Shown: in pieces, positions 45,495-61,484 of the stretch | How positions within the stretch are numbered: position 1 is the stretch's first letter | Layout: each line of letters starts with the position of its first letter | Assembly (NCBI RefSeq): GCF_000165835.1 | Contig: NC_014640.1 | Span: forward strand, 4,898,001-4,962,000 | Direction: 5' to 3' | DNA: 64,000 bases | Origin: Achromobacter xylosoxidans A8 | GTDB lineage: Bacteria > Pseudomonadota > Gammaproteobacteria > Burkholderiales > Burkholderiaceae_B | Program-made: the position numbers and the translations under genes | The notes under the pieces: generated by a model | What the model saw: only the letters and a program-made list of their open reading frames with translations | Told to the model about the DNA's origin: nothing | Databases searched by the model: none

Positions 45495-45740
45495 TTAGGA
45501 ACTTTCCCACGCCTGCACCACCGCGCGATGCCGTGCCGCGCACTCCCCATACTGAACAGCCAAAGCCATATAGCTGCGCGCCAGATCATCCCAGCTATCG
45601 CTGGTCACCTCGGGCACTGGTGGACACGGCTGCGCCAGATTGGCCGGCAGAATTGGCGAGGCGGCCGGCTGCGTTGATGTACCGCAGCCGCTCAGCGTCA
45701 ATGCGGCAGCCAGCAGGCAGAGGGCTTTGGACTTCGACAC
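45495..45740 (-). CDS. Rz1-like spanin lipoprotein
   Basis: 81 residues from a GTG, with GAGG seven bases upstream. Lipobox LSGC after ALCLLAAALT; the mature part is Pro-rich (QPAASPILPANLAQPCPPVPE). Outer-membrane half of the spanin pair that fuses membranes at lysis. Starts inside the Rz gene in another frame (146-bp overlap), the classical nested order. Confidence 0.85.
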   Translation of the reverse strand: MSKSKALCLLAAALTLSGCGTSTQPAASPILPANLAQPCPPVPEVTSDSWDDLARSYMALAVQYGECAARHRAVVQAWESS

Positions 45741-45996
45741 GGGTATACCTCTCGATGGTCTTGGGAGCGGTGTTGCGCAGCGCAGCGAGCGCGCCCTCCA
45801 GGGTGTCGGAGATCCCGCCCAGACGTGCCGTCTGCCGCTTGAACTCGGCGAGCTCGGCCAGTGCGTGATCGGCGTTTGCCTGGTCGATGCCGGCCTGGTA
45901 TTGGTTGGCGCCATACCAACGCACGCCCAGGACGATGACGACCACTAAGGTCGCTCCGATCAGGTACGGCGCCAAGGCGCGCAGGGATGGAATCAC
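45595..45996 (-). CDS. Rz-like inner membrane spanin
   Basis: 133 residues from GTG with GGGAG upstream. One N-terminal membrane helix (YLIGATLVVVIVLGVRWYG) and a long coiled-coil periplasmic part. Partner of the Rz1-like lipoprotein. Overlaps the endolysin stop by 4 bp. Confidence 0.85.
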   Translation of the reverse strand: MIPSLRALAPYLIGATLVVVIVLGVRWYGANQYQAGIDQANADHALAELAEFKRQTARLGGISDTLEGALAALRNTAPKTIERYTRVEVQSPLPAGCRIDAERLRYINAAGRLANSAGQSGAAVSTSARGDQR

Positions 45997-46403
45997 GCGC
46001 TCCCTTTCCAATCGCGCGGAATCTGGAAATGCGGTCCGTCCTTGAGCGTCTTCCAGTCGCCACCCCATTCCACGGGAACCGCGAGTTCCGCTGCGCATGC
46101 TTTGACCACAACGGCCAGATCGACAAAGGCCTGCCAGTTGCTCCAGGGAATCGCCCCATCAATCAGAGGGGCAAGGTCCACGGCATGGCTCCAGCCATCC
46201 GCCTGCGGCAAGTGGTAGCTGGCCATCGTCAGGCTGGCGCCCTTGGCCACATTCTCGCGTTGCCGCGCTATGGTTCGGACTCCCTCGATCACGATGAAAT
46301 CGGTCAGCGTTCGTTGAATCGCCAGTTTGACAATCGCGACCAGGTCGGGATGCACACCGACGAGGCGATCCACGCTGCGTAGTGATAGCTGAAACGCGCT
46401 CAC
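45993..46403 (-). CDS. M15-family endolysin (L-Ala-D-Glu endopeptidase type)
   Basis: 136 residues from GTG. FQLSLRSVDRLVGVHPDL, SYHLPQADGWSHAVDLAP (zinc His and Asp) and PHFQIP (His) mark the peptidase M15 phage family. It cuts peptidoglycan cross-link peptides. No signal peptide, so it needs the holin. The GTG was preferred over an ATG at 46436 because the family begins at the SAFQLS segment. Confidence 0.87.
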   Translation of the reverse strand: MSAFQLSLRSVDRLVGVHPDLVAIVKLAIQRTLTDFIVIEGVRTIARQRENVAKGASLTMASYHLPQADGWSHAVDLAPLIDGAIPWSNWQAFVDLAVVVKACAAELAVPVEWGGDWKTLKDGPHFQIPRDWKGSA

Positions 46404-46437
46404 GGATGAGCTCTCCGGATGAATAGAACGATGCACG

Positions 46438-46746
46438 TCAGGCCCCTCTGCCGCGCACTCGGTCGATCACGGCCTGCCACAACGCGCCTATGGGAACAGC
46501 CTGCACCACATCCCATCCGCGAGAGACGACGGCCATGCCGAACATGCCAGTCAAGAACCCGGCAAGGCCTTCCGGAATCTCCAGCAGCAGCGATAGATAC
46601 GGGGCCGCGTAATACGCCACCAGCGAACCGCTTCCGGCCATGCTCAGCCTGGCCGGCCACGATCCTTGCAAATAGCGCATCGAAACAGCGGCCCCCAGAA
46701 CGCCGGCGAACTTTGCCGCAAGGGCATCGAAATCTTGGACGTTCAA
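46438..46746 (-). CDS. Phage holin
   Basis: 102 residues from a TTG start that has a perfect AAAGGAGG site six bases upstream. Two to three membrane helices (VSMRYLQGSWPARLSMAGSG, LVAYYAAPYLSLLL, GLAGFLTGMFGMAVV). It opens the inner membrane for the endolysin. Order holin-endolysin-Rz/Rz1 is standard. An ATG at 46797 is in frame but lacks a ribosome-binding site. Confidence 0.8.
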   Translation of the reverse strand: MNVQDFDALAAKFAGVLGAAVSMRYLQGSWPARLSMAGSGSLVAYYAAPYLSLLLEIPEGLAGFLTGMFGMAVVSRGWDVVQAVPIGALWQAVIDRVRGRGA

Positions 46747-46838
46747 TTTCGCCTCCTTTTGGAAAAGAAATGACCCCGCGAAGCGCGGCCTGTGCATACA
46801 CCAGATGGTATTGAAGACATCTGTACGCCATGGAACGG

Positions 46839-47249
46839 TCAGATATCTGGCGCAAGAAGCTCATCGCGCCGCTTCGGCAGCAGCAAACCTTTGCTGACGT
46901 ACAGATCGATCCCCGCAGCGACGGCTGGGTCCTCCAGGTCGATGAAGTCCGCCCGGTTGAAATCGTCGTAGACAAGGCCGACTTCCATGTCGGCAAGTTG
47001 CGCCTGGCGGATTGCCAACTGCTCGTCCATGGAAAAACGGCGAACGAATTCCCTTGAGGTGTAGCGTGTCTTGACAGGCAGAGGCGATGGCTCCGGTCGA
47101 GAGAAATTTCCGTCATTGAACGAGTCGCCAATCATGACTTCTCCGCTCACGCCCACCCAAATGAAGTCGGGATGGAATCGCCCCATGGGATCGACGTCGG
47201 TCAGTTCAGCGACCACGCCACCCTGAATATGCGCCCAAATTTGTCTCAT
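46839..47249 (-). CDS. Phage tail-fibre-associated protein
   Basis: 136 residues. MRQIWAHIQGGVVAELTDVDP, then a mixed helical end (FVRRFSMDEQLAIRQAQLADM). Opening residues resemble the small proteins that follow tail fibres in many betaproteobacterial phages; it may be a fibre chaperone or a distal tip component. GGTGAG precedes the ATG at 47249. Assignment is by position more than motif. Confidence 0.6.
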   Translation of the reverse strand: MRQIWAHIQGGVVAELTDVDPMGRFHPDFIWVGVSGEVMIGDSFNDGNFSRPEPSPLPVKTRYTSREFVRRFSMDEQLAIRQAQLADMEVGLVYDDFNRADFIDLEDPAVAAGIDLYVSKGLLLPKRRDELLAPDI

Positions 47250-47254
47250 ATCTC

Positions 47255-48307
47255 TCACCATTGAATAAGAACGGCGCCATGGGCGCCTGCCGCGCCGGCA
47301 GTGGCAATGCGCCCACCGCCGCCCATGCCAGGCGCAGGAACACGGCTCGGGTCAGCGCCCGCGAACGGCGACCATCCGCCGCCGCCGGCGCCCCCGTAGA
47401 GGGGCGCCGTTCCACTCCCGTACTGCGGGCAATTACCGTATGCGCCCCGCCACCCGAAACCCGTCGTTCCTGCCACGATCCCCCCTGCGGGACTGTTGGC
47501 GATAAGCAGACCGCCATCGCCGCCCTCGCACGAGCAATAAGTGCCGAACGACGACGCTCCGCCAGCCGTGCCGTTAGTACCGACGGACGGGCCACCCGCG
47601 CCACCCGCCCCGACCGTGACAGTGACGGACGAAACCGCCGAGATATCAAACAGCCCTTCCCAGTAGCCACCCTGACCGCCGCCGCTTGGCCCTGGCGCCG
47701 TGGCCACACCGCATGCGCCGCCTCCGCCGGCGCCATAGACGCGTACGTATACCTTTGACGTACCGGCCGGTTTGTCGAAGGTATACACGCCGGGTGACGT
47801 GTAGGGTTGATACCCGGTAACGGCGGCCAAGGCTTGTGCCATCTTGAGTGGCGTGATGGCAGTCGTGTCATCAGTCAGCGCCCGCGCCTGGGCGGTAGAG
47901 GCAATGCCCGCGGGAAGCCCTATCCAGTCCGCCCCGCCTGCATCGGGATTGCCCATGTTGTTGTCAGCCAGATTCAGCCAGTATCCATTCGCGGCCGCCT
48001 GCTTCAGCACGGTCCCTTTGGGATAGCCTCCTATGGCCGTGCTGAACGTGACATCGTAGGAGTAGCCGGCCCCGGCCTGCCCCCAACGCACAGCTGCACT
48101 GAGGAAGTTCAAGATCCCGTTGAAATCGGCGCCATACGGGGGAACCCCTCCCGCCGCCAGCGGCGTCATCGTCAAAGGCGGAAACCCATCGGTGAAAGAC
48201 GCTAGTCCGGGCGTTACTCCAGTCTGCGATGCGACAGGAATGGTGTTCTTCGTCCCGCTGTTCGCAAACGGGACGGCCGATTTGTTGGGTGCATTGCTAG
48301 CTTGCAT
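47255..48307 (-). CDS. Tail fibre with glycine-rich receptor-binding domain
   Basis: 350 residues. The N-terminal half attaches to the baseplate (FTDGFPPLTMTPLAAGGVPPYG, NGILNFLSAAVRWGQAG, phage-fibre repeats); residues 170-350 form a glycine-rich domain (YGAGGGGACG, VTVGAGGAGGPSVG, GGAGGGGWSPFAG) ending AHGAVLIQW. Gly-rich tips like this form stacked polyglycine-II layers in some adhesins and set host range. Overlaps the previous gene by 11 bp. Confidence 0.82.
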   Translation of the reverse strand: MQASNAPNKSAVPFANSGTKNTIPVASQTGVTPGLASFTDGFPPLTMTPLAAGGVPPYGADFNGILNFLSAAVRWGQAGAGYSYDVTFSTAIGGYPKGTVLKQAAANGYWLNLADNNMGNPDAGGADWIGLPAGIASTAQARALTDDTTAITPLKMAQALAAVTGYQPYTSPGVYTFDKPAGTSKVYVRVYGAGGGGACGVATAPGPSGGGQGGYWEGLFDISAVSSVTVTVGAGGAGGPSVGTNGTAGGASSFGTYCSCEGGDGGLLIANSPAGGIVAGTTGFGWRGAYGNCPQYGSGTAPLYGGAGGGGWSPFAGADPSRVPAPGMGGGGRIATAGAAGAHGAVLIQW

Positions 48308-48971
48308 TGATAAGCCCCGAAGAAGTGAAAAATACGCCCGAGCCGAACGGCTGCATCAGCGCCTCGTGGAATCCGAACGTGGTGGAAAGATCGACCTGCA
48401 GAATGTTCGCCAGGACCGCCGCCGGCTTGGGTATCGCGCCGGACTGAGTCAGGATGGCGATCTCATGGGGTGCCAGCGCAAACTCGAACACATAGCGGAA
48501 CTCCATCTTTCCGGTGTCCGATACGTAGCAACGCCCGCGCCCCGCAAACAGTTTCGACAGCAGCCGGTTCAAACTGGGCGAAGTGCAATCCGAAATATTG
48601 GCCAGCGCCTTGACCAGGATCAGCGTGCGATACGCATCGTCGGCCAGCCGATACGTCTGCGTCGCCTGCTCGCCCGTGTAAAACGGCGCCTGGTCGAAGG
48701 GCTGCCAGTTCAGCGCCTCGTCATACCCCAGGTAGGTGACGTCGCCCGGGATGGTCAGCATCCGGCCGACATCGACGATCCTGCCCCAGATGTCCAGCCC
48801 GAAGCCCTGCGCGGTCTCGACGTTCCAGACGAAGTCATGGAAGGAGTCGAAATCGGCGTCCGGGTTGATGTAGTCGTCCATGTCGTTGATCAACTGGACC
48901 AGCGTGGGACTGTTGGCGTACTGGCTGATGAGGGTGCGGGCCACCAGCCCCGGCTTCGGCGCGACGCTCAT
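48297..48971 (-). CDS. DUF2612 baseplate/tail tip protein
   Basis: 224 residues. LISQYANSPTLVQLINDMDDYINPDADFD and VWNVETAQGFGLDIWGRIVDVGR match DUF2612, the gpI-like component linking the fibre to the baseplate. Overlaps baseplate-J by 4 bp. Confidence 0.85.
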   Translation of the reverse strand: MSVAPKPGLVARTLISQYANSPTLVQLINDMDDYINPDADFDSFHDFVWNVETAQGFGLDIWGRIVDVGRMLTIPGDVTYLGYDEALNWQPFDQAPFYTGEQATQTYRLADDAYRTLILVKALANISDCTSPSLNRLLSKLFAGRGRCYVSDTGKMEFRYVFEFALAPHEIAILTQSGAIPKPAAVLANILQVDLSTTFGFHEALMQPFGSGVFFTSSGLINAS

Positions 48972-50179
48972 ATCAAGGTCACCGAGATATCATCGGCCGT
49001 CACCGTGGGCCGGCGGTTGATCGGAACGGCCAGGCTGGCGGCCGACGGCGTTGCCGCCCCCAGAAGCAAGGAAAGTATGGAGACCGCCGGGCTCAGCACC
49101 GAAATGGGCGCATAGAACCGGCTCGCATAAATGGTCGAACCGATACGCGCTCTCTGCCCGCCATCCCCGCCGTTGAAGGCGTCCGCGATCGCCTGCTTGG
49201 TCAAAGCCACAATGTCCGATGGCAGGGCCGGGTTGTCAGCCAGCTGCACCGCGAAACGCACGGGCAATGCCGCAGGCGTTTCCCATGTCACGACATACGA
49301 CGGGTAGGGATAGGCGTAGCCCTCCTTGTCCTCCATGGTGTAGGAGGTGTTGCCGTTGTAGTCGGAACCGTTGCTCTTCTTGCGCCAGATGGCATCGGCA
49401 ATATCCGCTGCCTCCCCGCCCGTCACCGCCACCCAGATGGAATGCGGACGCAGGACGACGCCGCCTACCGTCTTCGGCACGGCGAGATCATTCTCTGTCA
49501 CATAAACATCGATGACGCCCTCCACGTTCGCCACATTGGCGTAGATCGCGGGGATCGAGCCGCGCGCGTTCAGCGCCACCGACTGCCGCCGGCGCTCCTC
49601 GAACTCGGCCCTGCTTTCCAAATGGCTGCCCACCGTTGCGGCGTCTGCGTTCGACACCGAGTCCCAACCGGGGATGGCCTGATAGATCTGGTTCAGTGCG
49701 CCAGGCGCGCAATCCACCGGTCCATCGACCGAGCAGGCGAAGGGAAGATCGATGCGCCCGCTGGCAGGGATGGTTCCCGCCTGGGTGCACAGGTACAGAT
49801 TGCCATCCACCGCCTGGGCGCGGGCGCCCACTGGGATGGTCACGCCCGCCAGGCCTGTGCACGTGGCAATGACGGCGGTAGGCGTACCAGGCTTGCGGTC
49901 CAGGAAGTAGATCCGCCCGATGGCGTCCTGCATGCGCCCTTGCGCGAAGGCCGGGTCAACCTGGTTCACGTAGGCCGCGAATTCGTTGTTCTTGTCGCCG
50001 ATGATGGCGGTGGTGCTGGAGGCCAACTGGCCCTGGGGCGTTTCCAGCGCGGGATTCAGCCCGCCGCCGAACGCGGCGTCCATGTCGGACAGGACGCCGG
50101 CCAGGATGTCGGATTCGTTGGGCAACACCAGCCCTTCCGGCGTGAACTGCACGCGCGGTACTTTCGAGTTGTTCGGCAT
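48968..50179 (-). CDS. Baseplate J-like wedge protein
   Basis: 403 residues. Central motif of the Mu gp47/gpJ family (GVTIPVGARAQAVDGNLYLC, GSHLESRAEFEERRRQSV, VIDVYVTENDLAVPKTVGG). It forms the wedge ring that triggers sheath contraction. Consistent with its place in Mu- and P2-like baseplates. Confidence 0.9.
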   Translation of the reverse strand: MPNNSKVPRVQFTPEGLVLPNESDILAGVLSDMDAAFGGGLNPALETPQGQLASSTTAIIGDKNNEFAAYVNQVDPAFAQGRMQDAIGRIYFLDRKPGTPTAVIATCTGLAGVTIPVGARAQAVDGNLYLCTQAGTIPASGRIDLPFACSVDGPVDCAPGALNQIYQAIPGWDSVSNADAATVGSHLESRAEFEERRRQSVALNARGSIPAIYANVANVEGVIDVYVTENDLAVPKTVGGVVLRPHSIWVAVTGGEAADIADAIWRKKSNGSDYNGNTSYTMEDKEGYAYPYPSYVVTWETPAALPVRFAVQLADNPALPSDIVALTKQAIADAFNGGDGGQRARIGSTIYASRFYAPISVLSPAVSILSLLLGAATPSAASLAVPINRRPTVTADDISVTLI

Positions 50180-50186
50180 GGTTTCC

Positions 50187-50537
50187 TCAGAAACTGACGG
50201 TTTGCGTCGTTCCGTCTTGCAGGGTGATTGCGACGTAGCCCGCCAGGGCGCGGTCGGTATAGGAGGTCAGCGTGCAGATCGCGCTGGCCACTTCGGGGAC
50301 CGTCATCGCGGCACGCCTGACGTGCTCTCGCACCAAGGCCAGCGGCGGCTGATGGCCCAGGAATTCTTCCCAGTAGGGAACGCCAGGGAGGGTGTTGTAG
50401 AACAGTTCGCCCCTGAACAGCTTGATGGCGCTGGCGACGTCCTGCGCGACGGCATAGGGCTTGGACGCCAGCGCGATGTTGCCCGCGGCGTCGAGCACCA
50501 GATCCCAGGCGGTCCGGTCTAGCAGCAGGGTGTTCAA
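50187..50537 (-). CDS. Phage GP46-like baseplate protein
   Basis: 116 residues. DLVLDAAGNIALASKPYAVAQDVASAIKLFRGE and YFTDRALAGYV-like end place it in the gp46/gpW (T4 gp25-like) family that joins sheath start to wedge. Overlaps the spike gene by 4 bp. Confidence 0.85.
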   Translation of the reverse strand: MNTLLLDRTAWDLVLDAAGNIALASKPYAVAQDVASAIKLFRGELFYNTLPGVPYWEEFLGHQPPLALVREHVRRAAMTVPEVASAICTLTSYTDRALAGYVAITLQDGTTQTVSF

Positions 50538-51265
50538 TTGGGCGCTCCTGTATTTGCCGGCCCGCTCTGCACGCCGGAATGCGTGTGGGTACTGCCCACG
50601 TCCTTGCCGTTGTTGCGCAGCGTACCCAGCGTGTTCATGTCGCCTTGCCAGGTGGACGTGCCGCCCAAGGATCCGCCGCCCTGCCGCACCGTGCCGTTAA
50701 GCACGATCCGGGGAGAGTTCAACGCGCATTGCGCGCTGGCGTTCAATTCGATGTCGGGCGCGCTGACTGTCACCTTGGAGGGTGAGACCACGTTGATGCC
50801 GCCGGCCGTGAACTGCACGTACTGGACCGGCGTCCCATTCAGCAGACCACCGAAATACAGTCCATCCGCCATGTCGTGCGAACGCCAGGAACCAGGGTTG
50901 TTCTGCGCCTTCGAAGTCTTCACTAGCGAGATGTCCCGATTCGCGAAAGCCGCCATTCCGATATCGCCTGCCTTCGGGTCCAGGATGACGGCGTCCGCTC
51001 CGCCCTGCAGGCGGAAGTAAGGAAGGCGATGCAGGACGCCATGTGGCACGGCATTGCCGGCCCCATCGAGCTGGTTGACGAGCGGCTGCACATCGACGAA
51101 ACCCACCGGCGACAGCCCGCCTGAATTCGTCACCGACACCACCTTGACGAGCGTCGCCGTACTGACTCGATTCAGGGCCTGGCTGATCAGGAACTGCAAG
51201 GCGCCGAACTCGCTGTCGCCCTGGCCGGCTTGCGCCAGACCTGCGTATCCGTATTGCTCAGCCAT
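50534..51265 (-). CDS. Gp138-family membrane-piercing spike
   Basis: 243 residues. N-terminal OB-like Gp138 domain (LISQALNRVSTATLVKVVSV, GVLHRLPYFRLQGGADA), a beta-helix-like middle, and a C-terminal THTHSG near residue 228, the HxH pair that binds iron in spike tips. It punctures the target envelope at contraction. Confidence 0.88.
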   Translation of the reverse strand: MAEQYGYAGLAQAGQGDSEFGALQFLISQALNRVSTATLVKVVSVTNSGGLSPVGFVDVQPLVNQLDGAGNAVPHGVLHRLPYFRLQGGADAVILDPKAGDIGMAAFANRDISLVKTSKAQNNPGSWRSHDMADGLYFGGLLNGTPVQYVQFTAGGINVVSPSKVTVSAPDIELNASAQCALNSPRIVLNGTVRQGGGSLGGTSTWQGDMNTLGTLRNNGKDVGSTHTHSGVQSGPANTGAPN

Positions 51266-52139
51266 GGAGATTCCTTTCGCACACCGCCACTGACTGCCAG
51301 ACGCCGCCGGGGACTTCCGCCTCCAGCTTGTGGGACAGACTCACAATGATCCACTCGCCGTGCGCGGGTTCTACGGTGCTGATGACTTGCACTCTTTTTC
51401 CCAACCCAAGATGCGGGTTGTAGAGCGTTGTCAGTTGGAGTCCCTTGCTCGTAAAGGCCGGATATCCGATCAACCCCGTTTCCGGCGCCACGAGAATCGG
51501 ATCGCCCTTTCTGAATCCGCCCTCCGGCCAGACTGACAGGACGCCGCGGTCTATCGTGAAGTTGACTCGGGCGGCCTTCGCGCAACTGCGTAGTTGGTCC
51601 ATGTCGGTTCCGGAAAAATAGGGATCGGCCAATACATAGTCCTCCCCGCTTTTTTCACCCTTGTATCCCATCGATCTGGCGATATCGCACATGATTTCTT
51701 GCGCCTTTTTCGCGCCGCGAAAGGACCTGGCGGATGCGGACTTTAGCTGCTTGGCCCCGGCCACCTCGGCCTTGACCGTGAATACGCCCCCCGCAGCCGC
51801 TTTACCTTCTGCACCCATTCCATAGCCAGCCCAGGCTTCGAGGATGTCTCCCTCGTAGACCACGCAGGGAACACCGGAATCGTCCCCGGCGTCGATCCGG
51901 ACAAGGTTCTTTCCCCGGCGTTCCTTCATGACGGGTCCTATCGTCGTCAGCTTGTTCATCAGGTCTTGATTCAGCCCGTGGATCAGCAGGGTCAGCGGAC
52001 TGTTTTCGAAGGCGGTGTAGGCGGGAATATCCACCGTCGTCCGGTAGCCGCTGAGCGTTACGTCAGGCCCCTGCTCGTCGCCAAACTTTCCTTTACCCAG
52101 GCTGATGGTCACGTCCAGCCGTCGCTTGATGAAGCTCAT
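51258..52139 (-). CDS. Baseplate hub protein
   Basis: 293 residues, sited between spike and plug genes. LDVTISLGKG, YRTTVDIPAYTAFENSPLTLLIHGLN, and a tail with IISTVEPAHGEWIIVSLSHKLE; resembles the gp27/gp44-type hub that connects tube to spike. Assigned by position and length. Confidence 0.75.
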   Translation of the reverse strand: MSFIKRRLDVTISLGKGKFGDEQGPDVTLSGYRTTVDIPAYTAFENSPLTLLIHGLNQDLMNKLTTIGPVMKERRGKNLVRIDAGDDSGVPCVVYEGDILEAWAGYGMGAEGKAAAGGVFTVKAEVAGAKQLKSASARSFRGAKKAQEIMCDIARSMGYKGEKSGEDYVLADPYFSGTDMDQLRSCAKAARVNFTIDRGVLSVWPEGGFRKGDPILVAPETGLIGYPAFTSKGLQLTTLYNPHLGLGKRVQVISTVEPAHGEWIIVSLSHKLEAEVPGGVWQSVAVCERNLHG

Positions 52140-52435
52140 AGTTCCAGCGGCTCCAGGTAAGCCAGGACGAAGCGCGAGCCGAGATCCTGATACTGCGGGT
52201 CGGCGTGGCCCTGGGTGTCCACAAAGGCCAGATCCCCAACGAAGCCCAGGTAGGCAGCCCGCACAAGCCGTACCCGGTCATGGCAAAGCACCGTCGTCAC
52301 GATAGGCGCATTGTCGAGTTCAAGATCCAGATAGAGTCCGGTCGACTTCTGATGGACGGCGATCTGGCAGTTCTGCCCGGACAACACGACGCTGAGCGTT
52401 TGCGCCGGCACGGGTCTCAAGGGAATTCTCTTCAT
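52136..52435 (-). CDS. Baseplate plug family protein
   Basis: 99 residues, beta-rich (PAQTLSVVLSGQNCQIAVHQ, PIVTTVLCHDRVRLV, LAFVDTQGHADPQY). Matches the short plug proteins found next to the hub in simple contractile tails such as phage Pam3. Overlaps both neighbours by 4 bp. Confidence 0.8.
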   Translation of the reverse strand: MKRIPLRPVPAQTLSVVLSGQNCQIAVHQKSTGLYLDLELDNAPIVTTVLCHDRVRLVRAAYLGFVGDLAFVDTQGHADPQYQDLGSRFVLAYLEPLEL

Positions 52436-53076
52436 TGGATAGGCTCCAGATCCGCCACCTTGTTCTGGTCGCGCCGGGGATAGGCGTCAATCTCGAACGC
52501 CTGTACCTGGCCATTGCTCTCTTCATTCGCGCCGCTGGGGTCCTGCGTGGCCGGCGATAGCGGGACGGCCGTCTGCCGGACTTCGAGCAGGGTCAGATCG
52601 ACGACCAGGAGGCTGGAGCCGTTCTTGTCGGCGCGGGTGTACGAGTACTTCACCAGGTTGGCCGACGGATAGACGATCTCGGGCGTCACCACTGAGTACA
52701 GATCCGTGCTGCCGACGATGCGCTCCAGCACGGACAACATGACGTTGCGCGATGCCGGGTCGCCGCCGTGCGCCAGCTTGATGGTCGCCTCGAATGGCGC
52801 ATCGACCTTGTTGAAGGCTGAAAACCCACCCTGCTCCGAGGGATAACTGGATATCTGGGTGGTTTCACTGAAGGCGATGCTGAGAAACGTCTCGAAGACC
52901 AGCATCTGTTGCCCATCGGCGCCGTACAAGCCCCAGCGAGGAGGACCGAAGATCAGATCGGTCAGCGCCCCCGACCCGAAGCTTGCCAGCTCGGAGATGG
53001 AAGGAATGGTCACTTCGCGGAAGACCGCCGGTACGCCCGGACTGCTCGGGACATCGGGAAAAGGAACAAGTGGCAT
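52432..53076 (-). CDS. Baseplate structural protein
   Basis: 214 residues. Begins with a Pro/Val-rich segment, then FGPPRWGLYGADGQQMLVFETFLSI and a beta-domain (GGFSAFNKVDAPFEATIKLAHGGDP). Position between tape measure and plug suggests a hub-adjacent ring component. Stop overlaps the neighbour. Confidence 0.75.
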   Translation of the reverse strand: MPLVPFPDVPSSPGVPAVFREVTIPSISELASFGSGALTDLIFGPPRWGLYGADGQQMLVFETFLSIAFSETTQISSYPSEQGGFSAFNKVDAPFEATIKLAHGGDPASRNVMLSVLERIVGSTDLYSVVTPEIVYPSANLVKYSYTRADKNGSSLLVVDLTLLEVRQTAVPLSPATQDPSGANEESNGQVQAFEIDAYPRRDQNKVADLEPIQ

Positions 53077-54740
53077 CAGAACATCCCCGTATTGCCTTGT
53101 TGGACGAGATTCTGGGAGCCCCCCACTCGTCCCAAATCACGAGCGATTCCCGCACCATCCGTCGCCTGCGTCACAATCGTGATGGGGCCGTGGATATGGG
53201 TTTCGGAGGTATTGTTGGTGGTAGCCGTGCTGCTCGGAATGCCGGCAGCGCTGGCTTGCGCTGCCGCAGCTGTAGTAGCCGCAGCCGCGGCGCCTCGTTC
53301 CTGATCTTCAAGGGAAAGCGTCCCATGGATTGCTCCGGCAGCGGCGGCGAGCTTGCGCTCTTCGCTTGAGCTGGCCCCCTCGGACTTGCTCAACCCAAAG
53401 TGGCGGTACACGGCCACGCTGGCCTGGGCCGGGGTGGTCGCGGCTGCCAGATGTACTCCAGCCCTACGCCTGGTGCTCTCCAACTCGCTGGCGACGAAAT
53501 CCAGCTGCTGTTCAACCGTGGACTCGCGCATGTCCATGCCATATACGCGCTTGAAGTCGGCCTGGCGTCGCGGATTCCATAGTCCGATGCCAGCGGAAAC
53601 GCCATCAGCGCCCACGGCCCTGGGGTCCAAGTTGCTTTGGGCCTGCAGGTTGGCCACGAGCCCCACGGCCGCCTCCCGGGCATAGCCCTTGGACTCGAAG
53701 TACCTGACCGCATCGACGACCTCCTTGCTCTTCAGCGCGGGATTTCTCATCGCCGCCAAGGTTTCATCCTCGCCTGAGTTCAAGTCCTTGCTGCCGAACA
53801 ACGATGCGACGACTGCCGCGACAGGTCCCGCCGCTCTCAGCGCCACAGGTCCCAAGCGTTTCAACACACCCAGGCCTGTCGCCGCGCCAGCGCCCCCGAG
53901 GGTTCCAAGAGCCGTAGCCACGGCTCCCAAGGCAGATGCCAGGCTCAGCAGCGAATTCGCCCAGGACAGAATCTTGAGCGTCCCCAGCACGAGCAGGACG
54001 TTTTGCCATCCTCCCACCGCCTGCGCCGCCGAATCGACTGCATCAATGAACTTCACGATGGCCTGCGCCGCGCCGTCGACCCACTCGACGATCTCGTCTC
54101 GGTTCTCAAGCAGATAATCGCCCCAGCCCTGTGCGAGCGAGATAAGCCGCTCAAACGCCGGCATGAGCGCCAGCAGCACCTTGACGCTCACCGATTCAAA
54201 CGTGTCGCGCAGGTCCAGGTACCGGTCGCGCAGCTGCGAGGCAGCTTCCGCATCGTTGCTGGAGATGGCAGCGCGTTTCTCCTGGACCTGAAGCAGCCGT
54301 TCGAGCTCGTCTGGCCCGCGCTTGAACAGATTGAACAGGCCCTCGCTGATGCCCATGTCCTGGGCGGCCAGCGCGGCCTGGGCCCTGTCCTTCTGGTAAA
54401 GATCGGCAATGATCCTCGACCTGGCCAGCAGGTAGGTGTTCCCATCTTTGAGGTCGCCGACATTGCCGCCGTTGCGAAAGAACCCAGGTAGCGAGTCCGC
54501 GGCGGATCCGCGGTTGAATCTGGCGACCTCGCTCGAGGATTCCTTCAATTGGGCGGAAATGGCTTCGGCAGTTCCGCCCGCCCGCTCGGCCGCCTTCTGC
54601 CACGCGGACAGCCGCTCGGTGCTCATATCCAGATTCTGGGCCATTTGGGCCAGACTGACCGCACCGGAAAAGCTGTCCGCCGCGAAGCGCTTCGGATCGA
54701 ACCCCGCAGTGACGAGCAAGGCATCGATGATGGTGGCCAT
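53076..54740 (-). CDS. Tape measure protein with lysozyme-like domain
   Basis: 554 residues, short for a tape measure, implying a tail of roughly 80 nm at about 1.5 Angstrom per residue. Helical N-terminus, hydrophobic middle (ILSWANSLLSLASALGAVATALG, residues 255-320), and at 345-450 a tail lysozyme-like domain (YFESKGYAREAAVGLVANLQ, GIGLWNPRRQADF). Sets tail length and may degrade peptidoglycan during penetration. Confidence 0.88.
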   Translation of the reverse strand: MATIIDALLVTAGFDPKRFAADSFSGAVSLAQMAQNLDMSTERLSAWQKAAERAGGTAEAISAQLKESSSEVARFNRGSAADSLPGFFRNGGNVGDLKDGNTYLLARSRIIADLYQKDRAQAALAAQDMGISEGLFNLFKRGPDELERLLQVQEKRAAISSNDAEAASQLRDRYLDLRDTFESVSVKVLLALMPAFERLISLAQGWGDYLLENRDEIVEWVDGAAQAIVKFIDAVDSAAQAVGGWQNVLLVLGTLKILSWANSLLSLASALGAVATALGTLGGAGAATGLGVLKRLGPVALRAAGPVAAVVASLFGSKDLNSGEDETLAAMRNPALKSKEVVDAVRYFESKGYAREAAVGLVANLQAQSNLDPRAVGADGVSAGIGLWNPRRQADFKRVYGMDMRESTVEQQLDFVASELESTRRRAGVHLAAATTPAQASVAVYRHFGLSKSEGASSSEERKLAAAAGAIHGTLSLEDQERGAAAAATTAAAAQASAAGIPSSTATTNNTSETHIHGPITIVTQATDGAGIARDLGRVGGSQNLVQQGNTGMF

Positions 54741-54744
54741 GCAA

Positions 54745-55343
54745 TTACCTCGGTTCAGCTAGGACGCGCCTGTTGTGTGCGTCCACCGCAATCACCTCAA
54801 GCAAGTTGTACAGGTCCTCGGCACCATAGACCGTCTGCAGATCGTGCAGCAGGCCCGGGTGCCGGGAAATCACCGCGCCAATAATCCGGGGAATATTGGC
54901 GTAGCGGATCAGGCGCGTGCCGCCGTTGTGGACTTGGAGCCCGAAGTCGATGGGGCGGCGGCCGTAAAAAAATCCAGGTGCAAGCCCAGGACTTTCTTGC
55001 GCAGCGTGAACAGGGTCGCCACCTCCTCGACATCGCCGGACATGAGCTCGCGCGTCACATTCGGGCTGGGCTGGATCTGCACGCAATCCATCATCTTGTC
55101 CAGCAGCGGCTTGGCGCTGTCGAAAGGCAGCTTGGCGATGGCCTTCATGCCCATGGCAGCCACGCCGGCCAGCCCTGCCTCGGCGATGTTGTCCGGGATT
55201 TCCACCCCGGCGTTCATCAACGAAAACAGCGCCCGGCCGGCCCATTCCTCGGCCTCGTAGGCAGAAAGCTCCGTCAGGATGAACACCTTGCCCTTGTCGC
55301 GCCCTTCGGCGCCGATGGTCAGGGTTGTCTGCTTTCTGGCCAT
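54745..55343 (-). CDS. Frameshifted tail assembly chaperone (G-T type)
   Basis: Product of a -1 slip at the seven-T run 54966-54972. It keeps residues 1-126 of the shorter chaperone, then reads YGRRPIDFGLQVHNGGTRL and RYANIPRIIGAVISRHPGLL to a stop at 54745, total about 199 residues. The downstream frame has no ribosome-binding site or plausible start of its own but clearly coding sequence, as in lambda G/GT. The long form binds the tape measure while the short form coats it. Confidence 0.85.
54909..55343 (-). CDS. Tail assembly chaperone, short form (G type)
   Basis: 144 residues. MARKQTTLTIGAEGRDKGKVF, then a helical part (AAMGMKAIAKLPFDSAKPLLDKMMD, VTRELMSGDVEEVATLFTLRKKV). Typical of the chaperone before tape measure genes. 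The zero-frame tail after the slip site is Ala/Ser/Thr-rich and probably disordered. Confidence 0.85.
   Translation of the reverse strand: MARKQTTLTIGAEGRDKGKVFILTELSAYEAEEWAGRALFSLMNAGVEIPDNIAEAGLAGVAAMGMKAIAKLPFDSAKPLLDKMMDCVQIQPSPNVTRELMSGDVEEVATLFTLRKKVLGLHLDFFTAAAPSTSGSKSTTAARA
54966..54974 (-). promoter_or_regulatory. Programmed -1 frameshift site
   Basis: On the minus strand GAT-TTT-TTT-ACG. Two TTT codons in a run of seven T followed by A allow tandem slippage (T TTT TTT A). The -1 frame continues with conserved-looking protein for 73 codons; the +1 frame does not. Confidence 0.85.
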
Positions 55344-55344
55344 G

Positions 55345-55776
55345 TCACACCAGCGCCGGAGAGACGTTCTGCCAGGTGATCTGGAACGCCATGGGTTGGA
55401 GCATCGCCTTGGCGTCCGGCGCCGGCGGAATCTGCGTCAGCACACCGCGGGTCAGCGTGTACTTGCGATCGATCGACGGGATGTTGAGGGTTCCGTTTGC
55501 ATAGAACACTTCCCGGGCCGTTTCGCTGGCCGCCATCCAGATCTCGAAGACGCGCATGGACGGGGAGTCGGGCTGGATCGTGATGATCTGCACGCGGGGA
55601 ACCGGCACGTAGCTGGCCGACATGCGGCCGTCCACGCCCATGGTTACCTGCGCGGGCGTGGCAGCCTCGAAGGTGAAGGCACTTTCGGAGGCATAGCCCT
55701 CGATCTTCTGCGGCACCGGAAACACGCCGCCCACCGCAAGCATCAGAACCGAGTTGGCACTGGTCAAAGTCGCCAT
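55345..55776 (-). CDS. Tail tube protein
   Basis: 143 residues. ASESAFTFEAATPAQVTMGVDGRMSASYV and VQIITIQPDSPSMRVFEIWM, beta-rich as in DUF3277-like tubes. Next to the sheath gene, its normal partner. Forms the inner tube through which the spike is driven. Confidence 0.82.
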   Translation of the reverse strand: MATLTSANSVLMLAVGGVFPVPQKIEGYASESAFTFEAATPAQVTMGVDGRMSASYVPVPRVQIITIQPDSPSMRVFEIWMAASETAREVFYANGTLNIPSIDRKYTLTRGVLTQIPPAPDAKAMLQPMAFQITWQNVSPALV

Positions 55777-55785
55777 GTTGAATCC

Positions 55786-57264: not shown

Positions 57265-57268
57265 AGCG

Positions 57269-57802
57269 TTAAGCTCCCGTAGGGTAGGTGGTGTCGGCCT
57301 CGATGAGGCCCACGTGAAGTTGGTCCGCGAACTGCTGCGGCACGGTGATGGATGGGTTGAACTGCAGGACGGCGTCGAATGACCACCGCTCGAAGGTCTG
57401 GCTTGCTCCGCTGTCAAAAGGCAATTGCTTGAGCTCGCCCGCGTATAGCGGCTGGGCTCGTCCCAGGCTCTCCAGGAACTCGCACCCGTACTGGCTGCGC
57501 CAGGCGATCGCTAGCGTGAGCGCCAGGTCCTGGGCCCGTGCTCCGTAGCCATCCACCCGGGCAGACCATTGCGTGGCCTGGGTCATGCTGCGCGTCCCCG
57601 CCGCGGGCGACGGATCGGCATAGGCCATGACCGGAACAGAAAGTCCAAGCGCCGCCAGCGGCGTAATGACGATGCACTCGCGCGGCGGAGTGGGAACCCA
57701 ATTGGACAGGCCGCGGAAAACTTCGCAGTCGACCAAGGTCTTGAAGAAGGCGACGAGGTCCGCTACCAGCTGGTCTTCTGTGATGCTGATCTGAACGCTC
57801 AT
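57269..57802 (-). CDS. Neck/tail terminator protein (gp12-like)
   Basis: 177 residues. MSVQISITEDQLVADLVAFFKTLVDCEVFRGL, PRECIVITPLAALGL and ARAQDLALTLAIAWRSQYG match the phage neck terminator family that caps the tail. It is the last structural gene; no head-completion, capsid or terminase gene follows. The ATG at 57802 gives the family start; the frame is open to 58006 through the repeat. Confidence 0.85.
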   Translation of the reverse strand: MSVQISITEDQLVADLVAFFKTLVDCEVFRGLSNWVPTPPRECIVITPLAALGLSVPVMAYADPSPAAGTRSMTQATQWSARVDGYGARAQDLALTLAIAWRSQYGCEFLESLGRAQPLYAGELKQLPFDSGASQTFERWSFDAVLQFNPSITVPQQFADQLHVGLIEADTTYPTGA

Positions 57803-57854
57803 GGAGTTGGAGTCCTGCCAAAGAAGTAAGCATCGAAACGAAGCGCCAAAATGC

Positions 57855-57882
57855 AAAAGCCCCGGCACTTGGCCGGGGCTGC
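57855..57882 (-). terminator. Terminator before tail operon (left copy)
   Basis: On the minus strand AGCCCCGGC-CAAGT-GCCGGGGCT followed by TTTTGC. Shields the tail operon from early transcription. Confidence 0.7.
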
Positions 57883-58025
57883 ATTTGCTAGGGGCGCAAT
57901 GCCCCGGGCCCATTGTGACCGATTGCGTGACCTGAGAAACGGGGTCTTGTGACGGAACCGTCACACGCCATGCAGAATCGAGTCGGCGCCCTGCCGAAGA
58001 GGCCAAGGCAACATGCCCAAAAGCA

Positions 58026-58053
58026 AAAAGCCCCGGCGCGTGGCCGAGGCTTC
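58026..58053 (-). terminator. Terminator after early operon (right copy)
   Basis: On the minus strand AGCCTCGGCC-ACGC-GCCGGGGCT with TTTTTGCTT after it. Ends the operon 60269-58103. Confidence 0.72.
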
Positions 58054-58102
58054 ATTTCCTGGGGACGCAATGCCCCGGACCCATTGTGACCGATTGCGTG
58101 AC

Positions 58103-58363
58103 CTACGGGGCGGGGGCTTGTGACGGAACCGTCACACGCCATGCGTAGGTCCGCCCGTGGCCGCCCGCTACAGGCTCTTGAATCAGCACGCTGCCAGTAT
58201 CCTGCAGCGCATCCATGGCGCGCTGAATCCCTCTTTGCATGCGCGTCTTTTCCGGAAGGGACAAAGACCGGCCATGCGACACGTGCCGCACCAGCTCCAT
58301 CAAGCGGAATGAGCGTCCGGGATAGCAGGCCATCAAATCCATCACCTCGTGCGCGTACTTCAC
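58103..58363 (-). CDS. Small helix-turn-helix-like phage protein
   Basis: 86 residues from GTG with AAAGGAGG eight bases upstream. YPGRSFRLMELVRHVSHGRSLSLPE and GIQRAMDALQDTGSVLIQEP look like a winged-helix. Ends AWRVTVPSQAPAP, part of the repeated segment. Could regulate late genes. Confidence 0.65.
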   Translation of the reverse strand: MKYAHEVMDLMACYPGRSFRLMELVRHVSHGRSLSLPEKTRMQRGIQRAMDALQDTGSVLIQEPVAGGHGRTYAWRVTVPSQAPAP

Positions 58364-58716
58364 GCCAGCCTCCTTTCGACCAGGCTGCGAAACAGGCCCA
58401 GGTACAGTTTGTATTCGGTTTCGGTCAGGGCTACGCCTGTCGTATCGGCGATCCAGTCCAGCGCTTTCGCCATGCGCGCCCGGCCCTCCAGCTGGCCAAA
58501 CATCACGTTTTTCTGTGGGTACTCGGCGATGATGATCATCCGCTCGTGCCAGGGCAGTGCGGCATGCATCGCCTCGACCTCCATGGCGTGGTGATGGTTG
58601 ATGGGCCGGTAGTCCTCCTCTTCGGACACGTACACCTCCATGTTCCCCACCGTAGCGCCGGACCAGGTCCACCGTACCCAGTTCCATATCAAATCGTCGC
58701 CCGTCAATTTACTCAT
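58360..58716 (-). CDS. Hypothetical phage early protein
   Basis: 118 residues. Aromatic start MSKLTGDDLIWNWVRWTWSG, acidic middle, HHHAMEVEAMHAALPWHERMIIIAEYPQ. The size and place recall late-gene antitermination or DnaC-loader accessories, but no motif is decisive. Overlaps its downstream neighbour by 4 bp. Confidence 0.65.
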   Translation of the reverse strand: MSKLTGDDLIWNWVRWTWSGATVGNMEVYVSEEEDYRPINHHHAMEVEAMHAALPWHERMIIIAEYPQKNVMFGQLEGRARMAKALDWIADTTGVALTETEYKLYLGLFRSLVERRLA

Positions 58717-59452
58717 CAGCCACCTCGCATTGTTTACCTGTCTTGCCGTTGGAACCGTTCTTCAGACGGTCCGCTGTTTCCTGGCTTTCGCCCTTGGCGC
58801 GCTGGATCATGTCGGCAATGCCCTTGCTCGGGTAATCGCCGCGAGCGATGCGCGCTTCCCACTTTTCGATCCAACTCCGATGCGGGCGCCCACGGTCCCT
58901 CAATACCTTCTGCGCGCCCATTTTCTTGAGCGCCGCCTCGGCCTCGGCGCGCGTCGCCATGGTCTGTCCGGGCGCCGGCAGCGCCGGGCGCGGTAGCGGG
59001 ATGTCCGCCCATGCGCCCTTTGCCAGTTCCTCGTTCAAGGTCTTCTCCCACCGCGCCTTGATCGCCCCATAGGTGCAGCCCAGCAGATCCACCGTGCTGA
59101 CGCCTACCGCCGCCCAGTACACCGCCGGATGCGACCAGACGCCGGGCTCCCCCCGCCTGCGGGCGGACATGCCGCGCACCGCCTCGTGATAGGCCACTTC
59201 CGGGACCATCCACGGGCAACATGATTTGATGAACTGCGGCAGCGTCGGCGGCCATTCCTGGGTGAGGCAAGCGACCAGGCCACGGCGTACCTGGACTTCA
59301 TCCAGGCCCGCCAGTTTCTGATTCCATGAATCTTTCAGCTCCCGCGCCGTCAGGCCCTGCCATTGCTGCGCGAACTTGGCGCCGTACATCAGCAGCATTT
59401 CATTCACCACCAGCGCCCCAAGGGTGGCGGGCTGGACGTCAGCGGCTGGCAT
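58709..59452 (-). CDS. Phage replication protein P-like
   Basis: 247 residues. LYGAKFAQQWQGLTARELKDSWNQKL, WPPTLPQFIKSCCP and AVRGMSARRRGEPG resemble lambda-P-like helicase loaders of betaproteobacterial phages. Follows a DUF1376 (O-like) gene, the standard pairing. Overlaps it by 14 bp. Confidence 0.75.
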   Translation of the reverse strand: MPAADVQPATLGALVVNEMLLMYGAKFAQQWQGLTARELKDSWNQKLAGLDEVQVRRGLVACLTQEWPPTLPQFIKSCCPWMVPEVAYHEAVRGMSARRRGEPGVWSHPAVYWAAVGVSTVDLLGCTYGAIKARWEKTLNEELAKGAWADIPLPRPALPAPGQTMATRAEAEAALKKMGAQKVLRDRGRPHRSWIEKWEARIARGDYPSKGIADMIQRAKGESQETADRLKNGSNGKTGKQCEVADE

Positions 59453-60269
59453 CGATCGTCCCCATGTATCGTTCGCGCGGCCGGCCTTGGTCGGCCAGGA
59501 CCTCGCGCAGTTCATCGGTCCAGTCGGCCAGGCGTTGCGCCCTGCCTGTCGTGGGGTTGTTCCGGGTACGCGGAGGAAAGAGGCCCTGATACCCGCCCGC
59601 GATGCTGTTTGCGATCACGGCGCCCGGCTGGTGCCCTTCGGCGAGATAGCCAGCAAGCTGCTGCAACTGACGTCTGGCGCCCTGCTCGGTCACCGGCTTT
59701 TTGCGTGCCTTGCGATCGGCAATCCAGCTGACCCAGTCCTCGCGGTCGAGCCAATCCGGGAGATCGATCACGGAGGCGTCGAATGCGCTGCCTCGCTTGC
59801 GAGGGGTGGAGGGGTGATCTTCTGGTTCCTGGTTCTTGGTTCCTGGTTCTTGGTTAGCTTCCGATCCGGATTTTTCCCGGCCATGGCCGGGTTCCTCGTC
59901 GGAACCCATGGGAAACCCGCTGGGTTGTTCCGAACTGCGGTCGCCCTGCCTCGGCCGGCCTCCCCGCCTGCCGTTGGCTTTGGCGGTCTCGGCCTTGAGG
60001 TGATAAGCGGCAATCTCCACGTCCGCGCGCTTGTTGTGCCAATGGCCGTCCCGCAGGACGAAGAACTCGGACAGGACCTGCGTGGCGGCTTCCCTTTCTT
60101 CCTCGGTCCGCGCCCCCACCCACCGGAATACCTGCTGCAGGTGGTCCACGATGGGCTGCTCTTCCGCGTAGTACCGGCGCAGCAGACGGCTATAAATGGC
60201 ATCCTCAACCAGGCTGAGGTGCGCCGTGGCCTGGGCGTAGTCGCCTATGTTGTGGCTGTAGTAGTTCAT
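59439..60269 (-). CDS. DUF1376 (YdaU-like) phage replication initiator
   Basis: 276 residues. NYYSHNIGDYAQATAHLSLVEDAIYSRLLRRYYAEE is DUF1376; a low-complexity linker (EANQEPGTKNQEPEDH, from a 14-bp tandem repeat) follows; the C-terminus (DWVSWIADRKARKKPVTEQG) resembles O-like ends. First gene of the early operon, facing the repressor operators. Confidence 0.85.
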   Translation of the reverse strand: MNYYSHNIGDYAQATAHLSLVEDAIYSRLLRRYYAEEQPIVDHLQQVFRWVGARTEEEREAATQVLSEFFVLRDGHWHNKRADVEIAAYHLKAETAKANGRRGGRPRQGDRSSEQPSGFPMGSDEEPGHGREKSGSEANQEPGTKNQEPEDHPSTPRKRGSAFDASVIDLPDWLDREDWVSWIADRKARKKPVTEQGARRQLQQLAGYLAEGHQPGAVIANSIAGGYQGLFPPRTRNNPTTGRAQRLADWTDELREVLADQGRPRERYMGTIDASR

Positions 60270-60317
60270 GCGTGCTCCTGCATCCTCCGCCCGTTCTTAC
60301 CCGACTATCATTTTTAA

Positions 60318-60335
60318 ATCTTAGAATGCTAAGAT
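60318..60335. promoter_or_regulatory. Repressor operator 1
   Basis: ATCTTAG-AATG-CTAAGAT, a perfect 18-bp dyad in the AT-rich gap between the early operon and repressor. Shares CTTAG-N4-CTAAG with the second site. Confidence 0.75.
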
Positions 60336-60366
60336 TCTAAATGCAAGCCAACTAAGATTGTTTTTG

Positions 60367-60381
60367 TTTAGCATCCTAAGA
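60367..60381. promoter_or_regulatory. Repressor operator 2
   Basis: TTTAG-CATC-CTAAGA, overlapping the first base of the repressor ATG, which suits autoregulation. A half-site CTAAGAT lies at 60352-60358 between the two. The repressor has no ribosome-binding site and may be leaderless. Confidence 0.65.
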
Positions 60382-61484
60382 TGACCTTTCAGAAGCGAAT
60401 CACACAGGCGTTCAACGAGGAAGCGACCCGCCGGGCGGACGCGGCCGAACCACGCCTGACCAAGACAGACCTATGGAAGGCAGCAGGCGCCTCTTCCGGC
60501 GCGGCAACGCATTGGTTCAATGGCTCCAACGGCATGGACATGGCAACCTGCATCAAGGTTGCCCCGCTGCTGCGCGTGAACGCGCAATGGCTGTATGACG
60601 GCAGCCCGCCGAAACTGCCTGCACGCGATGGCTCCCTTGCAGCCGCTGCGCTGGCAATTCCCCCTGCGCCCTGGCCCTTCCCTGGCATCCCGGAAGAACA
60701 AGTGCGCGCCTTGCCCCCGGACCAGCTGAACAAGCTGCAGGGCGCGCTCGCATTGGCGATCGCTCAACTGAAGTTGGGGATCGATGTCTCGCCTACCCCT
60801 GCCGCGCCGCCGATGCCGATGCCGACGGTCCTGCGCAGCGACTCGCTGATAGACAGCTATCTGTCGCGCGACGAATTCCCGCTGCGCATCGATGGCCTGC
60901 CCGCGGCGCCGTGGGAGGGAGGCAAGACCACGCACCAGACCGAGCGCGAAGGCCGCGTCCGGATCAGCACGCAGACTGGCGTGGTGGCGAATGTGGGAGT
61001 GGGTGAGCCGCCCGCGGCCAACGACAGATTCGAGAAGGTTCCCGAGCTGGCCGACGTGCGCCTGGCGGCGGGCGACCCCATCGAAAATCACGCCGAAGAA
61101 CAGACCGGCATGATCCAGTTCCGCAAGTCGTTCCTGCGGTCGGTAGGTGCGGACAACGGCAAGGGGCGCGTCGTGTACGCGAAGGGCGACAGCATGGAAC
61201 CCGTCATCCGTGACGGCGCTGCCTTGCTGGTGGTCCCCAACGAAAGCCTGACGCTGCAGGACATCGCCGCCGGCGGCGTCTATGCCATCAACTACGACGG
61301 CAAGATGATCGTGAAGACGGTGGCCAGGGAACGGCTAACCGGGCAATGGGTGGCGCGATCGTTCAATTCCTTGCACGATGACATCCCGCTGGAGAACGGG
61401 GCATCGGTGCGGGTGCTGGGGCGGGTTGTGTGGGCGGGTGCACGGTTGCGGGATGATGAGGCGGGGCGGTGGCGGGCTGAGTGA
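60381..61484 (+). CDS. LexA-like (S24) phage repressor
   Basis: 367 residues. N-terminal helix-turn-helix (LTKTDLWKAAGASSGAATHW), a long linker, then an S24 domain. RLAAGDP around A230-G231 fits the Ala-Gly cleavage site of LexA; S271 in GDSMEP and K312 in MIVKTVA are the catalytic pair. RecA-stimulated self-cleavage would release the early and probably the tail operon after DNA damage. It is the only plus-strand gene of the locus. Confidence 0.9.
   Translation: MTFQKRITQAFNEEATRRADAAEPRLTKTDLWKAAGASSGAATHWFNGSNGMDMATCIKVAPLLRVNAQWLYDGSPPKLPARDGSLAAAALAIPPAPWPFPGIPEEQVRALPPDQLNKLQGALALAIAQLKLGIDVSPTPAAPPMPMPTVLRSDSLIDSYLSRDEFPLRIDGLPAAPWEGGKTTHQTEREGRVRISTQTGVVANVGVGEPPAANDRFEKVPELADVRLAAGDPIENHAEEQTGMIQFRKSFLRSVGADNGKGRVVYAKGDSMEPVIRDGAALLVVPNESLTLQDIAAGGVYAINYDGKMIVKTVARERLTGQWVARSFNSLHDDIPLENGASVRVLGRVVWAGARLRDDEAGRWRAE

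Follow-up and report, generated by a model that had tools for sequence, protein, structure and literature searches.

What does a phage tail, complete with its lysis genes, do in a bacterial chromosome when there is no head for it to fill, and why should it keep genes for DNA replication? The question is raised by an island of Achromobacter xylosoxidans A8 at positions 45495-61484 of the window, i.e., the whole 64-kb stretch analysed (chromosome 4898001-4962000). We believe that the island is a domesticated prophage that very probably works as a contractile tailocin (a phage-tail bacteriocin) against related bacteria; the particles, their induction and the killing we infer from the genes. The first-pass annotation took it for a headless, probably SOS-inducible contractile tailocin. 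The headless tail at the core of that claim is upheld by a precise deletion, a cluster found in seven genomes, selection and an intact repressor, while the replication genes O and P and a late-control unit had been overlooked. Gene calls came from a simple codon-usage script, Pfam, NCBIfam and PHROG profile matches are the basis for the gene names, and each species is represented by one genome.

The repressor gene CI lies on the plus strand (60381-61484); all other island genes are on the minus strand and end at 45495. Their order is O, P, two early genes coding for 118 and 86 amino acids (aa), tail terminator, sheath, tube, two chaperone frames, tape measure, distal-tail-like protein, plug, hub, spike, three wedge or baseplate genes, fibre, fibre-chaperone-like gene, holin, endolysin and Rz/Rz1 (Table 1). 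Profile matches for each gene class bear out the annotated, uninterrupted tail with its holin, endolysin and Rz/Rz1; frameshifts, which would have counted against a working tail, were looked for, and no broken frame was seen in the A8 tail and lysis genes. The gene annotated as a neck protein is present and is, by its family matches, the tail terminator. R-pyocins derive from P2-like phages, without replication genes. The island sheath matches DUF3383, phrog_205 and phrog_9590 only, in agreement with the tail type first proposed, and identity with a P2-type tailocin or R-pyocin was rejected for want of any P2-type sheath match. Three features expected of a contractile tailocin are found at the locus: a complete contractile tail module, a lysis cassette, and no head or packaging genes.

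A profile search of the island proteins gave no match to terminase, portal, capsid or protease families, as had been claimed (this family-by-family scan covered the island and not the flanking 45 kb of the window). The DUF2612 protein (phrog_587), the plug (phrog_349) and the tube (phrog_1964, phrog_280) match PHROGs of the "head and packaging" category, which are generic structural names. The set that marks an intact prophage (terminase, portal, capsid, integrase) is lacking. A search for head genes elsewhere in the genome, made with Terminase_3 and with the portal and capsid of headed siblings, found none that complete the island. Terminase_3 is absent from the whole A8 genome (other terminase families were not searched genome-wide), and no relative of the capsid of a headed sibling was found there (best expectation value, E, 0.47). 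The sibling portal has one weak match (E 3.1e-6, 26%), which belongs to a separate headed prophage at 2.17-2.19 Mb with its own tail; on these three queries, completion of the island by head genes from elsewhere was rejected.

The loss of the head can be read from the headed siblings. In A. insuavis (G011), A. marplatensis (G014) and A. pulmonis (G020), the small and large terminase subunits (TerS, TerL), portal, a Mu-F-like protein, capsid and connectors fill exactly the interval from the 86-aa gene to the tail terminator; in three headless lineages, A (that of A8), B and C, the terminator directly follows the 86-aa gene with no gene between. Queries with portal, TerL and capsid found nothing in 28 headless clusters, portal and capsid being found in all eight headed ones tested. 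The test took in 28 of the 29 headless clusters and left out that of A. anxifer (G004), which is cut by the contig edge 118 bases short of the terminator gene. We still count this cluster as headless, since the 118 bases are the promoter/terminator-like unit and not the connector gene of headed phages. Coverage of 17 of the 22 B and C clusters is on the repressor side only (12.6-20 kb), with the tail as far as the tube. Judging from this gene order, the island is a phage with the head module cut out precisely between the 86-aa gene and the tail terminator. Separate head losses in A, B and C would be the simplest reading, the alternative being exchange of the whole tail module.

These counts come from a survey of 43 Achromobacter genomes, searched with DUF3383 and then once with each sheath type. 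The DUF3383 search gave 38 sheath loci in 30 genomes, and the sheath-type searches raised the total to 40 (11 A-type, 17 B-type, 10 C-type, two more distant); PF11863 missed two B-type sheaths, recovered only by the B query. Headless loci number 29 (A 7, B 12, C 10), one per genome in 29 genomes. The ten headed loci are A-type in G011, G014, G020 and G019, B-type in G019, G021, G009 and A8 itself, plus those of G006 and G022; the fortieth locus, B-type in G040, stands outside both counts. By sheath and gene order, headless relatives are thus found in many Achromobacter species. The headless members of lineage A are A8, A. aegrifaciens (G001), A. animicus (G003), A. anxifer, G005, A. mucicolens (G015) and a metagenome-assembled genome (G028). 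The comparison across related genomes that the first-pass annotation had proposed gave the cluster, with its precise head-module deletion, in these seven; the A8 gene order recurs in the six relatives, that of A. anxifer being truncated at the terminator gene by the contig end. In the sheath tree, whose bootstrap had not settled, lineage A forms a single clade (100/99), to which headed prophages of Achromobacter and Bordetella stand nearest, and the B rows include two headed sheaths (93/89). No headed member of C is in the set, and the nearest phage record to C is Burkholderia phage Magia (72%). Beyond the genus, no head gene was recognised within 10 kb upstream of the DUF3383 tail cluster of Bordetella sp. 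LUAb4 (L076, sheath 68%), which may be a tailocin outside Achromobacter.

The site of the island has its own history. A phospholipase-D-like (PLD-like) gene (PF13091), named cls here, lies within the examined repressor-side stretch in six of the seven A and ten of the 12 B clusters; it is on another contig in G004 and G013 and about 23 kb off in G022. The headed A. pulmonis prophage and others adjoin cls, with an integrase there. Of the headless clusters, that of A. mucicolens retains an integrase (PF00589) together with a gene that resembles an excisionase (below cut-off). A8 retains a 38-aa remnant of this integrase (89%, E 2.9e-16) at chromosome 4,964,053-4,964,166, 241 bases from cls and 2 kb past the window end; no remnant was found in G001, G003, G005 and G028, where it was sought. 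In the cls tree, a single gene tree of 40 of the 43 genomes (G019, G021 and G032 missing), C is one clade (7/7 sampled), and B occupies 12 of the 13 rows of one clade, the thirteenth (G034) being 57% complete. Synonymous divergence of the island is near to or somewhat above that of cls (for A8 and G001, 0.23 in cls and 0.12-0.47 in ten island genes); in other pairs an excess in hub, tape measure, O and CI suggests recombination. In several genomes different phage-like elements adjoin cls (L132, L134, L138, L139, L144-L146), and its neighbourhood is an integration hotspot.

Could the island be a decaying, defective prophage left without function by one large deletion? The ratio of nonsynonymous to synonymous substitution rates (dN/dS), taken as the median of pairs among six or seven members of lineage A and 12 of B, makes this quite improbable. 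The A medians are 0.096 for CI, 0.186 for O, 0.154 for P, 0.113 and 0.114 for the 118-aa and 86-aa genes, 0.262 for the terminator, 0.143 for the sheath, 0.090 for the spike, 0.225 for the tape measure, 0.263 for the fibre, 0.067 for the holin and 0.107 for the endolysin; those of B are 0.147 (O), 0.100 (CI) and 0.092 (P). Over all tested genes the range is 0.07-0.57, mostly below 0.27, and no unsaturated A pair reaches 1. Decay would agree with the integrase reduced to a remnant, the loss of cro in A8, G001 and G005, and further loss in G017 and G038, the latter keeping a lysis remnant; it agrees poorly with these ratios, with the unbroken tail and lysis genes of A8, and with headless B clusters in nearly all rows of a host clade. 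By dN/dS and by the six relatives, the locus is conserved rather than decaying, as a tailocin should be.

We gather here what weighs against a working tailocin. The Rz median is 0.568 in lineage A, with values up to 0.855, which may come from the overlap with Rz1. G028 has different lysis genes, and the A. mucicolens tape measure is divergent. Lineage A falls into two clades of the cls tree with gaps (4/7 and 3/4 rows), and G017 (L131) has lost the tail and kept CI, O, P, the 118-aa and the 86-aa gene at 89-96%; the island is therefore dispensable. A sigma-70 scan of the island gave 0 sites against 3.3 expected, none where we place promoters, for which reason the promoters are putative. Finally, tailocins lack replication genes according to a review, in the text available (PMC12090994), and O and P are present here and under purifying selection. 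A recent paper says likewise, again in its available text (PMC13195805).

Because O and P are kept, we file the island as a tailocin-like variant and not as a typical member; judging from the sequences, it is unusual among tailocins in keeping its own replication genes. The early operon order O, P, 118-aa, 86-aa is lambda-like, and every one of the 18 clusters of A and B that were examined still has O and P. Relatives of either were found in none of the ten C clusters (G026 has a different pair), and a headless cluster can therefore dispense with them. Within O, AACCARG repeats with a 7-nucleotide period run through lineage A, and three to seven copies within 45 nucleotides occur in 18/18 A and B clusters; seven not being a multiple of three, a protein repeat is not the cause. 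The array resembles iterons. Its test against synonymous-codon shuffles is weaker in G028 (45/500 shuffles), G035 (20), G013 (15), G003 (13) and G029 (10), and the array of the headed sibling G011 is no better than shuffles (269/500). If the head was lost before each lineage diversified, and for A the shared junction points that way, selection has kept O and P ever since; such conservation suggests a lasting role. It is tempting to propose that O and P start replication at the iteron-like array and that the copies, or replication itself, drive tail output. We offer this self-amplifying tailocin tentatively and would bet somewhat against it. The A8 locus would be copied in place, because the integrase is gone and it cannot excise.

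Replication genes kept under selection would also suit a satellite that copies itself by means of O and P and travels in the heads of another phage, and A8 does have a candidate helper, the second prophage at ~2.168-2.194 Mb (L154, L155), in which terminase, head protease, major head protein and tape measure accompany a B-type sheath (76% to lineage B). No packaging-hijack gene, such as satellites usually carry, was recognised in the island. Moreover, the tail of the helper is of the B type (sheath identity ~25-30%) and its terminator is a different one, the integrase needed for excision is lost in A8, and for the other six A genomes (G004 on drafts) the searches gave no headed locus of A or B type. 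We regard the satellite as very unlikely. Mitomycin C could induce both the island and this prophage; headed virions in an A8 lysate would for that reason not by themselves speak against the tailocin.

Control of the island may work as follows. CI faces O across operator-like palindromes, and its Ala-Gly cleavage site and Ser/Lys pair, intact as first annotated, are identical in 18/18 A and B clusters examined. G003, G015, G028 and lineage B retain a cro-like gene, which A8, G001 and G005 lack in their 110-base gap. The palindrome TGTGACGNNNNCGTCACA was tried as the CI operator and rejected, as it is not in the CI-O gap; its pattern with up to 3 mismatches occurs 4 times against 3.2 by chance, and only two exact copies stand out. 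The 118-aa protein was considered as an antiterminator and set aside; since it has no family match and is missing from 9/10 lineage C clusters, the 86-aa protein is preferred as regulator, by position. The latter gene is present in 28/28 headless clusters examined, and a protein search gave 15 relatives. Its predicted fold (predicted local distance difference test, pLDDT, 81 on 13 sequences) has Foldseek matches largely to winged-helix domains, none in PDB at E 0.001; on this model it is a candidate late-gene regulator. The GGTCACNNNNTCGRTCACAAT repeat site has two copies in each of the six A clusters covered whole and one in G017, with none in the other loci of the same scan; the seven B and C gaps read have repeats of different sequence at the same place. 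Lambda late control consists of Q, pR' and tR'. The layout here is similar, with regulator gene, repeats and terminators in that order, whereas the 86-aa protein has no sequence relation to Q.

We presume the following course. A lambdoid DUF3383 phage would have integrated near cls and lost the head module that stood between its last early gene and the gene for the tail terminator; the integrase would have decayed. On DNA damage, RecA would trigger self-cleavage of CI, and the early operon O-P-118aa-86aa would be transcribed; the 86-aa protein would then probably activate transcription that crosses the two tandem promoter/terminator-like units and enters the tail operon. Tails would assemble, capped by the retained terminator protein, and holin, endolysin and Rz/Rz1 would burst the cell and release them to kill related bacteria, the target being set by the variable fibre tip. 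Some contractile tails of other kinds deliver protein effectors, and the island might likewise be an injector rather than puncture membranes. Only the 118-aa early gene is left over as candidate cargo, and the whole gene set fits a phage tail with lysis; an injector seems to us the least probable of the readings considered.

Concerning the fibre, residues 1-160 share 105-122 identities with each of six relatives and residues 161-350 far fewer, and the alignment indicates that it is a conserved base with a variable tip. In lineages B and C, G012 (L055/L056), G037 (L061) and G026 (L057) have an integrase-family gene between fibre chaperone and holin, beside the fibre (PF00589 in G037). In G012 an inverted fibre-like fragment with ~60-bp inverted repeats (80%) adjoins it, possibly a fibre-switching system; such repeats were looked for in G037 and G026 and not found. 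The chaperone overlap has a run of seven T in six of the seven lineage A members (six T in G015), where the second frame is probably reached by a -1 frameshift. The spike falls below the cut-off of PF18352 (20.8 v. 26.1 bits), which we take to be Gp138_N (printed as xxxxx_N).

Table 1. Features of the A8 island (positions in the window)
Feature	Position	Strand	Matches and remarks
CI-like S24 repressor, 367 aa	60381..61484	+	phrog_4, PF00717; Ala230-Gly231, Ser271, Lys312
Operator-like palindromes, CI-O gap	60318-60335 and 60368-60382	.	3 matches to ATCTTAGNATNCTAA, 0.12 expected; conserved by eye in A
O-like replication initiator, DUF1376 domain, 276 aa	59439..60269	-	phrog_678, phrog_6451, PF07120
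Iteron-like AACCARG repeats in O, 7-nt period, 5 copies	59823..59855	-	0/500 synonymous-codon shuffles reach the A8 array
P-like helicase loader, start uncertain	58709..59515	-	phrog_109
118-aa early gene	58360..58716	-	no Pfam, NCBIfam or PHROG match; dN/dS 0.113
86-aa predicted winged-helix protein	58103..58363	-	phrog_20616 (unknown function)
Two tandem putative late-control units	57858..58136	-	each with palindrome, 12-nt direct-repeat site, intrinsic terminator
Late-unit palindromes	58119-58136 and 57948-57965		
Late-unit 12-nt direct-repeat sites	58083-58103 and 57912-57932		repeat GGTCACNNNNTCGRTCACAAT, ends in -10-like hexamer
Late-unit terminators	58027-58053 and 57858-57880		
Tail (neck) terminator	57269..57802	-	PF23961, NF047498; first gene past head deletion
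Contractile sheath, 492 aa	55786..57264	-	PF11863 (DUF3383) E 1.4e-142, phrog_205
Inner tube, named by position	55345..55776	-	PF22764 E217_Gp32, phrog_1964
Tail assembly chaperone frames (two)	54745..55343	-	phrog_1932, phrog_3976
Tape measure, 554 aa, with tail lysozyme domain	53076..54740	-	phrog_9570, PF18013
Distal-tail-like protein	52432..53076	-	phrog_1830; Dit_like below cut-off
Baseplate plug	52136..52435	-	PF22479 Pam3_gp18
Baseplate hub	51258..52139	-	phrog_196, PF22759 (E217_GP41)
Central spike	50534..51265	-	PF18946 GpV apex motif over cut-off; TIGR01644 below cut-off
gp25-like wedge protein	50187..50537	-	phrog_120
Baseplate_J wedge protein	48968..50179	-	PF04865, phrog_6
DUF2612 baseplate protein	48297..48971	-	PF11041 E 5.8e-60
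Tail fibre	47255..48307	-	phrog_12796 and others
Fibre-chaperone-like gene, named by position	46839..47261	-	phrog_25252 (unknown function)
Holin	46438..46797	-	phrog_2359
Endolysin, M15 peptidase	45993..46436	-	phrog_465 E 2.1e-53, PF13539
Rz spanin	45595..45996	-	phrog_1152 E 0.0022; position; membrane segment by eye
Rz1 lipoprotein spanin, start by eye	45495..45740	-	PF23793 LysC, phrog_456

Several known systems come close to the island. DUF3383 prophages with heads in Achromobacter and Bordetella (L046-L052, L072, L078) have the same tail order and sheaths 65-85% identical; the type of early module is that of the island in G011 and G014, and the G020 prophage is at its chromosomal site. 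They differ in having terminase, portal and capsid, and in G020 also an integrase. Isolated phages are more distant by sheath: Pantoea phage PA-1 (sheath 49%) and Bcep781 (42%) are complete phages with a DUF3383 sheath alike over its whole length, all 521 records found by the sheath search are below 60%, and there was no close match among 50,697 records. R-pyocins and other contractile tailocins share the contractile tail, the lysis cassette and the lack of head genes, as far as the available text of the review goes (PMC12090994), whereas the island descends from a lambdoid phage of the DUF3383 (Pam3/E217/Bcep781-like) kind and has retained O and P. Rhizoviticin of Allorhizobium vitis, as described in the accessible part of its paper (PMC10811719), shares a headless prophage locus, a CI/LexA-like repressor, lysis genes, an integrase remnant and replication genes. 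Its killing is demonstrated, early-region genes are required for tail-gene expression, which drops on their deletion, and its authors read the replication genes as an early evolutionary stage (PMC10811719). It differs in its flexible F-type tail and chimeric locus, the tail of A8 being a contractile DUF3383 one; in Achromobacter, O and P are conserved over many species.

A cystic-fibrosis study reports, in its main text, a Bcep176-like tail sequence without other structural parts in all A. xylosoxidans isolates and infers ancestral uptake and loss (PMC7826576). Like the island, this sequence is tail-only, and it is ubiquitous in the species; it is not called a tailocin in that text and may or may not be equivalent to one of lineages A-C. 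In the literature text available to our search, no paper describing an Achromobacter tailocin was found. The matter is of interest for a genus that infects cystic-fibrosis lungs. Little is known of how a prophage becomes a tailocin-like system, according to the available part of a review (PMC10598620). Here the passage from phage to weapon can be read directly: some siblings are still intact, one of which occupies the same site, the deletion has a sharp edge, and a single genus contains parallel headless lineages. The case also casts doubt on the idea that tailocins discard replication, and opens that idea to test. If the self-amplifying reading is true, replication would be a working part of the weapon kept by selection and not a relic of an early stage, and the need of rhizoviticin for early genes in tail-gene expression would be explained.

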